Assembly: GCA_003561515.1 (NCBI GenBank)
Contig: PWWL01000365.1
Coordinates: forward strand, 1-40,725
Direction: 5' to 3'
DNA: 40,725 nt
Source of the DNA: Balneolaceae bacterium
GTDB taxonomy: Bacteria > Bacteroidota > Rhodothermia > Balneolales > Balneolaceae
Position 1 is the stretch's first letter. Every line of letters begins with the position of its first letter. Made by a program: the position numbers and the translations under genes. Shown here in pieces: positions 10,324-14,211 of the stretch. The notes beneath the pieces were generated by a model, which saw only the letters and a list, made by a program, of their open reading frames with translations, made no database searches and had not been told where the DNA came from.

Positions 10324-10683
10324 TTATTCGTTGTCGTCGATATCCTGTTGCTGTGGAACAGCAGGTGCAGTTTGAGATGGCACAGTAAAATCGGAAGTGT
10401 CCACATTCTGCATGCCTTGTTGCTGGATGGCACTTTGCGAACCGCCTTCGCGGTCGATGGCGAAGTTTGCAAGTACGCTAAGCGATAAAAATAATACAGC
10501 CAGAATGGTTGTTGTTTTCGACAGCAGGTCGGCAGTTCTTCGGGCACCCATTGCAGCGCCTCCTGCCATTCCGGCCGCGAGGCCTCCGGAAAGTCCTTCT
10601 CTCTGTCCCGGTTGAAGTAGTACAACAATGATCAGCAGAATGCAGATCAGTGTAATTAAGCTTATGATAATTGCGTAGAGCAT
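10324..10683 (-). CDS. secG: Preprotein translocase subunit SecG
   Basis: Two TM helices with VVLLQPGQREGLSGGLAAGMAGG and RRTADLLSKTTTILAVLFL. Confidence 0.93.
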   Translation of the reverse strand: MLYAIIISLITLICILLIIVVLLQPGQREGLSGGLAAGMAGGAAMGARRTADLLSKTTTILAVLFLSLSVLANFAIDREGGSQSAIQQQGMQNVDTSDFTVPSQTAPAVPQQQDIDDNE

Positions 10684-11134
10684 ATCGGAAAATCAAATAT
10701 TTTATTCTAAAGAGCCTTAAAAATATCACTATTTAAAGACTTAACAAAGCACTGAATTAAGATCAGTTTGCTACATTTTGAGATAACGACATTGTCAAGA
10801 AAAAATTGCAGCGGTACAGGCAGATTTAATATGCTGAGAGTTTGAGCTTAATCATTTTTCCCAATACCAACTCTATTTAACGCGAGTTTTCGATACAACA
10901 ATTTATATAAGAGTGTCTCCCATTCCCGAAGGTCCCACTGGAAGTCTCCCATTGAGGGGAGAACCTTTTTTAGGCGGGGAGGAGTGTTTTTGTCGTGAAT
11001 TATGAACTATTTAACTTGTACCCGAACCGGTTAAACACTCAGAAGATCATTCCCACTGGCCCCTTTCTCCCACTGGGATCCCTGTAGGAAAAGTGGGATT
11101 GTTGTGTGGCCTTCGCTGTTAAACCGAACCAACA

Positions 11135-11749
11135 CTATTTAGGGATCGGCTGGATTAGTTTGGGGTCATTGTATTTAGGGTCATTTACTTTTTTGCTTAC
11201 ACGCATTACCGAAAGATCCGTAAGAAGAACTCTATTAACAGAAGATGTTAACAGTTCTATATTCCTTGCGCCATCGTCAATCCATCGAAGAGCCGTATCA
11301 CGATCCAAAATAAGAGGCATTTTTTCTGACATGGGCTGCACTAGTACATTGGCGTCGCTGATGATGAATTTGATAAAGCGCTGATCATCTTCAAATATTA
11401 ATCCGGGAGTTACCATCAGTGGGCCATTAAGCATTCTGACAAAAAAAGGATGATCCTTTTCACGATTATCTTTCCATACATAAAAACCACTCAAGGGTAT
11501 TGCGCATGGGATAGCTCCCTTTGTTAGCAGCTCACTGCTCGTTTCTAGATCTGCAGTGGAATCACCATTTTTTGAGCCCCATCTGATTCTTGTAATACCA
11601 ATCTCATTGTTTTCTTTGCTTACCACAGGAATGTGATAGCCGGTAGTGATATTGTAATGAGGCTCAAATAACTGCTCACTTTCTGCAGTGATGCCAAAAA
11701 AGGTTTCTACTTCCTGTTTAGTTGCAAAAAATGCGATACGTGCAAGCAT
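11135..11749 (-). CDS. SRAP/YedK-HMCES-like protein with substituted active-site residues
   Basis: Family landmarks kept (N-terminal M-x-x-R, YNI, RWG, GFYVW, GLIFEDD, EKMPLILDRD, ALRWID), but the N-terminus is MLAR rather than MCGR. Confidence 0.75.
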   Translation of the reverse strand: MLARIAFFATKQEVETFFGITAESEQLFEPHYNITTGYHIPVVSKENNEIGITRIRWGSKNGDSTADLETSSELLTKGAIPCAIPLSGFYVWKDNREKDHPFFVRMLNGPLMVTPGLIFEDDQRFIKFIISDANVLVQPMSEKMPLILDRDTALRWIDDGARNIELLTSSVNRVLLTDLSVMRVSKKVNDPKYNDPKLIQPIPK

Positions 11750-11829
11750 AACTTTTTTTGATTAATGTATTGAATGATAGTAAGATAATCCTACTTTAGT
11801 AAATAGTTTTTAAGACGAGGCGTTCGCTG

Positions 11830-12693
11830 ATGAGAAAGATCTTTTATAACCGATACGAGAACAGACTTCGGATGTTTTGGCGTGTGCTCATTGTCACAAC
11901 CATTCTGATGGCGGCAATTATTGCATTCTCTGGACTAACTAGTACAGGATACGGATTCACGATTCCGCTGGCCATTACGATGATGTTAATTCTTTGGTTT
12001 GCATCAAAGAAAGTAGATAAAAGGCCTTTTTCAGAATATGGGTTCGAACTCAAGGCAATCTGGTTTCGTGATTTTGCAGCCGGCTTTTTGATGGCTGCGC
12101 TGGCAATGGCTTCCATTGTTCTGATAAGTGTTGGCATGGATTGGATGGTGATTGACGGCTTCAATGCTACAGCGCGGTCAGGCTCATTCCTGATCGGAAT
12201 TAGCTACATTTTACTTGTAATGATTGCTGTAAGTATATGGGAGGAAGCTTATTTTAGAAGTTATCTTATCAGTAATTTCACTGAAGGGTTTCATGGAAAA
12301 TGGATGAGCAAAGGCGGTGCCATTCTGCTTGCCGTGGTTGTTTCTTCAATCATATTCGGAATGCTTCATTACGGCAATCCAAATGCCAGCTGGGTTTCAA
12401 CGCTGAATATATCCATTGCTGGATTGGTGTTCGCATATCCTTATATTGTGACGAAAAGTATTGCCATACCCGTTGGGATGCATCTCTCCTGGAACTATTT
12501 TCAGGGTGCAATTTTCGGATTGCCTGTAAGCGGCAATCAGTTTGATCAAATGCTTATGGTCGTTGATGTTACGGGTCCGGAGGTATTCACTGGAGGCAGT
12601 TTTGGGCCAGAGGCTGGAGCAGCCGGCCTGCTTGGGCTGATGATACTGGTGACTCTCAACGAGGTATACATCACCCGCTTTTATATGAAGTGA
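11830..12693 (+). CDS. CPBP family intramembrane metalloprotease-like protein
   Basis: Multi-TM protein with WEEAYFRSYL (EExxxR) and FGMLHYGNP. Confidence 0.88.
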   Translation: MRKIFYNRYENRLRMFWRVLIVTTILMAAIIAFSGLTSTGYGFTIPLAITMMLILWFASKKVDKRPFSEYGFELKAIWFRDFAAGFLMAALAMASIVLISVGMDWMVIDGFNATARSGSFLIGISYILLVMIAVSIWEEAYFRSYLISNFTEGFHGKWMSKGGAILLAVVVSSIIFGMLHYGNPNASWVSTLNISIAGLVFAYPYIVTKSIAIPVGMHLSWNYFQGAIFGLPVSGNQFDQMLMVVDVTGPEVFTGGSFGPEAGAAGLLGLMILVTLNEVYITRFYMK

Positions 12694-12795
12694 AAGCCTA
12701 CTTTCGTTATTTAAGAGGCTTGTTGAATTGAATGTGGTTTTTTTATAGCCACATTACTTGTTAATTGAAATTTTGAAAAACATTGAGGTTACACA

Positions 12796-14211
12796 TTGTC
12801 GTTTAATCAATTTCGACTACGTTCCGATATTTTGAAAGGGTTGCAGGATGTAAAAATTGACAGTCCCTCCCAGTTGCAGAAAAAAATTTATAAAGCCGTT
12901 CAAAAAGGATCTGATCTTGTAATAAATACCACGGTTGAAGAAAAGCCGGAAGTCGGTTATTTGATATCCCTGCTCAATCAGATTGCAAAATCTGAAAGGA
13001 GGCAGGGAACCAGGGCTATTATTCTTACCGGCGACAAACAGCGCGCAAAGCAAATTGATGAATGGATTTGGGCGATAGGCTACCATGCTTCCATCGAAAG
13101 CGCATGCATTACGGAAGATGGAAATCCTGAAGACCAGATAAAGGCTCTTGCCGCTGGCCCTGTTGTTATTGTTGCTACTCCGGCACGTTTGGCCGAGCTT
13201 CTTGAAAAATCAAAAATGGTTTTTAGAGAGGTAGAGCAGATGATTGTTGACCAGGGCGAAACTGTACAGGAATGGGGCTCGGTTGAAACAGTTTCGAAGA
13301 GAGTAATTGGCAAATGCCAAAAGATCATCACAGCTTCCAAAGACAGTAAAGAACTACGCGATGCTGAAAAAAATCTGCTTACAGAACCGGAACTTGTTAC
13401 ACTGGCGAAAAAGAAAGATGCTGCCAAAATAAACGGGAAATCATCGGCGGATGATACGCCCGTAATTGCCCGCGATTTGACCCAATACTATATCAAAGTT
13501 CCGCCAAGGTCGAAGATTACAACGCTAATGGCTCATCTCCAAAACCATGAGGCAGATACGGTGGTAATCTTTACAGCATCACGAAGAACTGCCGACAGAC
13601 TTTATAAAGTCTTCAGAAAAGCAAACAAGCGTGCTGTAAGTGTTCACAGCCAACTTAAAAAAGAGACATTCAATGAACGGTTCGACCGGTTCAAAACAGG
13701 AAATGTTCAACATTTCATTGTCGGTGATTTTTCAGCTGCAGATATACCTCTAGAGCACGCTACGCAAGTAATCAATTACGATGTTCCGGAAAGCGTAGAG
13801 GAGTACAAGCTTCGCGCTGAGTTGGTTGGTGATGGCAAGGCTACGAAGATTGTTTCGCTGGTTTCTAAACAAGACCGGGACGATATTAATACCATTTGTT
13901 CTGAACTTGGATATGCACCTGAAGAGGTGCCTTTACCGAAATCGGTGAAAGAGAAAAAGGAAGCGGGTGAACAAAAGCCAAATGGAAAGCAGAAATCCAG
14001 GGCAAAAAAACCAGGGGCTAAAGAACGTGGAAAAGGCAGAAGTAAGCAAAAGGGCAAGAAGCGCGGCCGTCCTAAATCATCAGCCAAAACAAAACCCAAT
14101 ATCGAAGGTTTACCAAGGCCTACATTCGACCAACTTGAAGGCGGCCGGGCCGGTAAGAAAAAAGAAGAAAAAAAGGGTCTGGTTGGCTTTATCAAAGGGC
14201 TGTTCTCCTGA
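12796..14211 (+). CDS. Degenerate DEAD-box helicase-like protein with a basic C-terminal tail
   Basis: Overall DEAD-box layout with SPSQLQKKIYKAVQKGSDLVI, IVATPARLAELL and VVIFTASRRTADRLYKVF, but the Walker A, DEAD and HRxGR motifs are not recognisable. TTG start preceded by GAGGT at 12785-12789. Confidence 0.75.
   Translation: MSFNQFRLRSDILKGLQDVKIDSPSQLQKKIYKAVQKGSDLVINTTVEEKPEVGYLISLLNQIAKSERRQGTRAIILTGDKQRAKQIDEWIWAIGYHASIESACITEDGNPEDQIKALAAGPVVIVATPARLAELLEKSKMVFREVEQMIVDQGETVQEWGSVETVSKRVIGKCQKIITASKDSKELRDAEKNLLTEPELVTLAKKKDAAKINGKSSADDTPVIARDLTQYYIKVPPRSKITTLMAHLQNHEADTVVIFTASRRTADRLYKVFRKANKRAVSVHSQLKKETFNERFDRFKTGNVQHFIVGDFSAADIPLEHATQVINYDVPESVEEYKLRAELVGDGKATKIVSLVSKQDRDDINTICSELGYAPEEVPLPKSVKEKKEAGEQKPNGKQKSRAKKPGAKERGKGRSKQKGKKRGRPKSSAKTKPNIEGLPRPTFDQLEGGRAGKKKEEKKGLVGFIKGLFS

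Follow-up and report, generated by a model that had tools for sequence, protein, structure and literature searches.

A conserved DEAD-box-derived protein of the Balneolaceae that has lost the helicase ATPase motifs

A stretch of 40,725 nucleotides from a Balneolaceae bacterium (contig PWWL01000365.1, positions 1 to 40,725; hereafter the window) was found to encode an intact relative of the DEAD-box RNA helicases in which vestigial motifs stand on a conserved helicase fold. The protein descends from a DEAD-box helicase and keeps its fold, the loss of its motifs is fixed, and the gene is under purifying selection in a conserved synteny. It is almost certainly a conserved pseudohelicase that lacks canonical ATPase activity. 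The explanation we favor, with rather better than even confidence, is that the ATP motifs were lost in the Balneolaceae ancestor and that the protein was then kept as a noncatalytic scaffold or tether. The chances are about even that such a scaffold or tether would act in RNA metabolism; by analogy, it would probably work with the ribosome-assembly or RNA-decay machinery.

Helicase fold and motif losses

The open reading frame occupies positions 12796 to 14211 of the plus strand (471 aa, TTG start, stop included; all features described below are on this strand) and is preceded by a Shine-Dalgarno sequence, GAGGT, at 12785 to 12789, which is retained in nearly all orthologues. The reading frame, start codon, GAGGT and quoted peptides of a preliminary description of this DNA were each located in the window sequence. 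The 471-aa protein passed the gathering cut-offs of both Pfam DEAD (4.4e-11) and Pfam Helicase_C (4e-12), and its phmmer matches, which spanned residues 3 to 364 and reached 8.9e-20, were to DEAD-box chains, with eIF4A-III, eIF4A, and CshA among those aligned along the core. The best curated family matches in NCBIfam were CshA, RhlE, and SrmB, with scores far under the curated cut-offs; CshA, which ranked first (1.9e-33), gave 116 bits against a cut-off of 646.

An AF2 model based on a 55-sequence alignment had a mean pLDDT of 84.8, with most positions above 90 in residues 1 to 199 and 227 to 391; it superseded a weak model made earlier from Rhodohalobacter sequences alone (pTM 0.41). Its pTM was 0.52, and the orientation between the RecA domains is uncertain. 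The top Foldseek matches of this model were DEAD-box helicases (E down to 9e-26). A tandem RecA fold, the absence of which would have counted against the preliminary description by its own account, is therefore present according to AF2 and Foldseek. RecA-like domain 1 (12796 to 13392, residues 1 to 199) is matched by Pfam DEAD and RecA-like domain 2 (13474 to 13968, residues 227 to 391) by Pfam Helicase_C, and between them lies a variable linker (13393 to 13473, residues 200 to 226) delimited by the model and by conservation. In other genera this linker is grown by acidic KLEKASVKVVLNPEE-type repeats of up to about four copies (L105, L115, L109, L114, L110, L112, and L116), none of which occur in Rhodohalobacter. 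Domain 2 is the better conserved in the pseudohelicases (58.7% versus 43.7% for domain 1), which is the reverse of the active paralogue (61.7% versus 70.5%). As read from sequence conservation, constraint is shifted from domain 1 to domain 2 and to two C-terminal peptides flanking a hypervariable Lys/Arg tail.

Alignment to the most similar active paralogue, a 554-aa protein (G000:C84, locus L031), upheld the motif replacements listed in the preliminary description. In the window protein (i) motif I, or Walker A, AQTGTGKT in the paralogue, reads TTVEEKPE (12928 to 12951, residues 45 to 52); (ii) PTRELA of motif Ia reads GDKQRA; (iii) DEAD of motif II reads DQGE (13249 to 13260, residues 152 to 155); (iv) VATDVLARGIDI of motif V reads IVGDFSAADIPL; and (v) HRIGRTGR of motif VI reads LRAELVGD, within YKLRAELVGD (13804 to 13833, residues 337 to 346), where the first Arg is kept and the arginine fingers are lost. 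The Q-motif Gln and the first Asp of motif II are likewise retained, and none of these three retained residues had been mentioned in that description.

Motifs I, GG, V, and VI were gone in all 56 aligned orthologues, with GKT or GK[ST] in none, and because motifs I and VI were lost in every one of them the losses are not due to chance. Motif I is of the EEKPE type in the Rhodohalobacter orthologues, the P-loop is one to two residues shorter in genera g11, g13, g15, g17, g20, g29, and g31, many genera having a deletion of 2 residues there, and genus g12 has GGSK or GSSK remnants; motif II ranges from DEAD/DxAD (g12) through DEAH/DEAQ to DQAE/DQGE (g1). Within the 43 members of the tree set, the Q-motif Gln, the Pro of motif Ib, and the first Arg of motif VI were retained in 100% and the first Asp of motif II in 98%, and the Pro/Arg of motif Ib were largely retained, while the arginine-finger positions were kept in 0 to 5% and the motif I Lys in 12%. 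The canonical RNA contacts were also mostly gone in this set (Ia Arg, GG, and QxxR, 0 to 12%; motif V, 0 to 33%), such that any RNA binding would fall to the basic tail or to some newly acquired surface. Held against a functional DEAD-box ATPase, the family has the tandem RecA-like fold and the Q-motif Gln, and it lacks motif I, the motif VI fingers, and most of the canonical RNA contacts; in place of the DEAD of motif II stand DQGE in the window protein and DQAE, DEAH, DEAQ, or DxAD in relatives. Two marks of a pseudohelicase were found, namely a helicase fold that is conserved although its motifs are vestigial, and retention by selection across species. The genera appear halted at differing stages of motif loss and so offer a natural series on a helicase fold without ATP, and residual nucleotide binding may persist in lineages with a DEAD/DEAH motif II and a GGSK motif I (g12).

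Descent, distribution and selection

The 554-aa protein was the closest intact paralogue (26% identity, 3e-40). The orthodox DEAD-box gene of the same window was more distant (22% identity, 3e-17) and was ruled out as the parent. In a maximum-likelihood tree, the pseudohelicases formed a single clade (UFBoot 100) on a long stem (1.28 substitutions per site), and the active paralogues of the Balneolaceae were its sister group (UFBoot 100); long-branch effects may bear on the exact placement of the clade. On the evidence of these sequences, the gene is a duplicate of an active, Balneolales-wide DEAD-box helicase that arose at the base of the Balneolaceae, changed rapidly, and later came under constraint. 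Descent from a DEAD-box helicase, as first proposed in the preliminary description, was borne out by the tree, by Foldseek, and by the paralogue alignment.

Complete orthologues were identified by a first search in 21 of the 24 other genomes of the genus (61 to 72% identity), and a further two had orthologue pieces split by contig ends. When a profile built from 55 diverse members was searched across the order, the scores were bimodal, with complete pseudohelicases at 1e-156 to 1e-221, one contig-cut pseudohelicase at 5e-118, and the active paralogue at 1e-85 or weaker. The pseudohelicase was present in 73 Balneolaceae genomes, and the other Balneolales families had the active copy only. No orthologue was found outside the Balneolaceae in a phylum sample of 197 genomes, in which the 27 matches were all from this family and the 170 genomes elsewhere were without one. 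Full-length orthologues free of in-frame stops were detected in 18 Balneolaceae genera. The protein was mostly missing in genera with smaller genomes (g18, g28, and g30) and is thus dispensable in some lineages. A very divergent, degenerate copy (L125 in genome G106, 2e-92) was seen in g28, a genus otherwise apparently without the gene.

Close pairs of orthologues, with dS unsaturated or moderately saturated, gave dN/dS values of 0.03 to 0.11; except in the very closest pairs, synonymous sites neared saturation. The dN of the pseudohelicase was 0.64 to 1.08 of that of the active sibling in the same genome pairs. The preliminary description had asked whether purifying selection conserves the loss of the motifs; this is the case, and none of the 56 orthologues keeps the intact GKT/DEAD set that the description had associated with simple decay. 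The gene order secG (minus), SRAP (minus), CAAX protease (plus), pseudohelicase (plus) was seen often in Rhodohalobacter and again in the majority of the other genera that were inspected. In the window, the secG, SRAP (HMCES-like), and CAAX protease genes lie at 10324 to 12693 on mixed strands.

These results bear on two readings in which the protein is either dead or still catalytic. That the gene is a decaying pseudogene, as the loss of catalytic motifs might suggest, is refuted by the stop-free orthologues of 18 genera, the low dN/dS, and the conserved synteny, Shine-Dalgarno, and start codon, and we give it practically no weight. That the protein is still a working ATPase, divergent and with a noncanonical nucleotide site, is very improbable: the invariant Q-motif Gln (43 of 43), the nearly invariant motif II Asp, and the GGSK of one lineage speak for it, but GK[ST] is found in no member, the P-loop is shortened in many genera, and both arginine fingers are gone nearly everywhere.

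C-terminal tail and mRNA leader

Beyond domain 2, the protein continues into a hypervariable Lys/Arg-rich tail that is predicted to be disordered (13969 to 14106, residues 392 to 437); its sequence identity is 22%, yet its Lys+Arg content stays at 27 to 55% across the family. Next comes a conserved tail motif of the LPRPTFDQLEGGRAGK type (14107 to 14160, residues 438 to 455; 65% mean identity family-wide), with the consensus LPRPTYDGLSGGRxGK, and then a G-rich, hydrophobic-basic C-terminal peptide marked by conservation, KKGLVGFIKGLFS (14170 to 14208, residues 459 to 471). A peptide resembling this one is also found at the C terminus of active relatives (e.g., GIWGIIKSF and GIWGKIKNLF), in which the LPRP motif is missing. 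A search for a second protein with the tail motif or the C-terminal peptide gave none that was convincing, and for the tail motif the pseudohelicase was the only convincing match per genome in the seven genomes searched. The amphipathicity of the C-terminal peptide barely exceeded that of shuffled sequences (mean z of about 0.55), and a role as a membrane anchor is only weakly supported.

The mRNA leader in the window was found to contain a hairpin predicted by RNAfold (AATGTGG...CCACATT, 12731 to 12755) and an element that leader comparison showed to be conserved, TTGTTAATTGAAATTTTGA (12758 to 12776), which is GATCTTTGAAAATTGAAC in other genera. In eight other genera the leader runs in the order hairpin, GATCTTTGAAAATTGAAC, GCC, GAGGTG, and TTG, most of these leaders being headed by a TTTTGTATATT-like promoter element, and the conserved GCC can pair with the Shine-Dalgarno. 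An anchored pairing search, with shuffled sequences as the test, placed a hairpin 0 to 3 bases upstream of the element in all 19 leaders from other genera, with 17 different stems and a stem score of 16.4 versus 8.9 in the shuffles, the 19 sequences being related and not independent. RNAalifold on a MAFFT alignment missed this hairpin owing to indels. Rhodohalobacter leaders have an altered form of the element, and not all of them contain the hairpin; that of the window is strong. Rfam gave no family match in the window or in nine related loci. A UUG start with a GAGGT-type Shine-Dalgarno was observed in nearly all pseudohelicases (exceptions: GTG in L117 and ATG in L090). UUG is also the start codon of the active sibling in Rhodohalobacter, and the starts shared by the two genes possibly reflect translational control.

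Candidate roles and known pseudohelicases

As a scaffold or tether, the pseudohelicase would present the face of domain 2 and the conserved tail motif as a dock for a protein partner, the Lys/Arg tail could hold RNA in a sequence-independent manner, and the parent-derived peptide at the C terminus would target the protein to the site of the parent helicase, be it ribosome assembly or RNA decay. Proteins of the CshA/RhlE type usually have roles in ribosome assembly and RNA decay, and because of these roles and of the analogy with Utp25 drawn below, these are the likeliest settings. A more specific version, in which this scaffold is a bacterial counterpart of Utp25 and the structured, boxA-like leader couples its synthesis to rRNA transcription factors, is speculative and probably incorrect as a whole.

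Two other roles were weighed against that of a scaffold or tether. The pseudohelicase could instead regulate its active sibling, the shared C-terminal peptide or docking site leading to competition or pairing that tunes the access or activity of the sibling. A basic tail and a G-[hydrophobic]-K-rich peptide form the C terminus of both paralogues and of the active helicase in other Balneolales families, and nearly every pseudohelicase genome has the active copy; however, the pseudohelicase has a motif of its own, LPRPTYDGLSGGR, that is missing in the active copy, as well as its own locus and leader, and we consider this role unlikely. Equally doubtful is a ribosome-assembly factor under Nus-factor control, with GATCTTTGAAAATTGAAC as a boxA comparable to that of Escherichia coli suhB; in gamma-proteobacteria, suhB and translation genes are reported to be boxA-controlled (PMC5725501). 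This reading draws on the succession of a hairpin and a boxA-like sequence in the leader and on the presence of the element, with 0 to 1 mismatch, upstream of the pseudohelicase gene in eight of ten genomes scanned. Against it, local alignment of the element to the 16S leaders of the same genomes was nonsignificant overall (shuffle fractions of 0.03 to 0.87, with a TCTTTGA core shared in one genus), the CTTTG core is lost in Rhodohalobacter, and the element is partly promoter −10-like.

Among the nearest known systems is the active, CshA/RhlE-like sibling itself, which is collinear with the pseudohelicase across the core and shares its basic tail, a similar C-terminal peptide, and the TTG start. 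The sibling differs in that its catalytic motifs are all intact, it is Balneolales-wide, and it has neither the LPRPTYDGLSGGR motif nor the conserved leader. A whole bacterial family retains a DEAD-box duplicate devoid of ATPase motifs alongside its live parent. Compared by description, Utp25, termed the second pseudohelicase by its authors, likewise has a tandem RecA fold of DEAD-box origin, vestigial motifs, and a conserved noncatalytic role, but it is an essential component of the eukaryotic SSU processome with a demonstrated role in ribosome assembly, and it belongs to another lineage and has other accessory regions (PMC9539457). The PriA of Deinococcus is bacterial, has lost Walker A and B lineage-wide, and is a nonmotor, partner-binding protein; it differs in being the orthologue of a DNA replication-restart helicase rather than a DEAD-box paralogue, and its ATPase loss was measured (PMC4504706). 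Utp25, a eukaryotic protein, and Deinococcus PriA, a bacterial DNA-repair protein, were the two named pseudohelicases retrieved by our literature search, which had most subscription papers outside its reach and returned no pseudohelicase that descends from a DEAD-box protein of bacteria and nothing relevant on helicases of the Balneolaceae or Rhodohalobacter. The helicase label that domain-based annotation would give the proteins described here is almost certainly wrong. One Rhodohalobacter genome contains a third DEAD-box-like match (G015:C100:7743-9005) that has a single in-frame TAA and may be a pseudogene or an assembly error.
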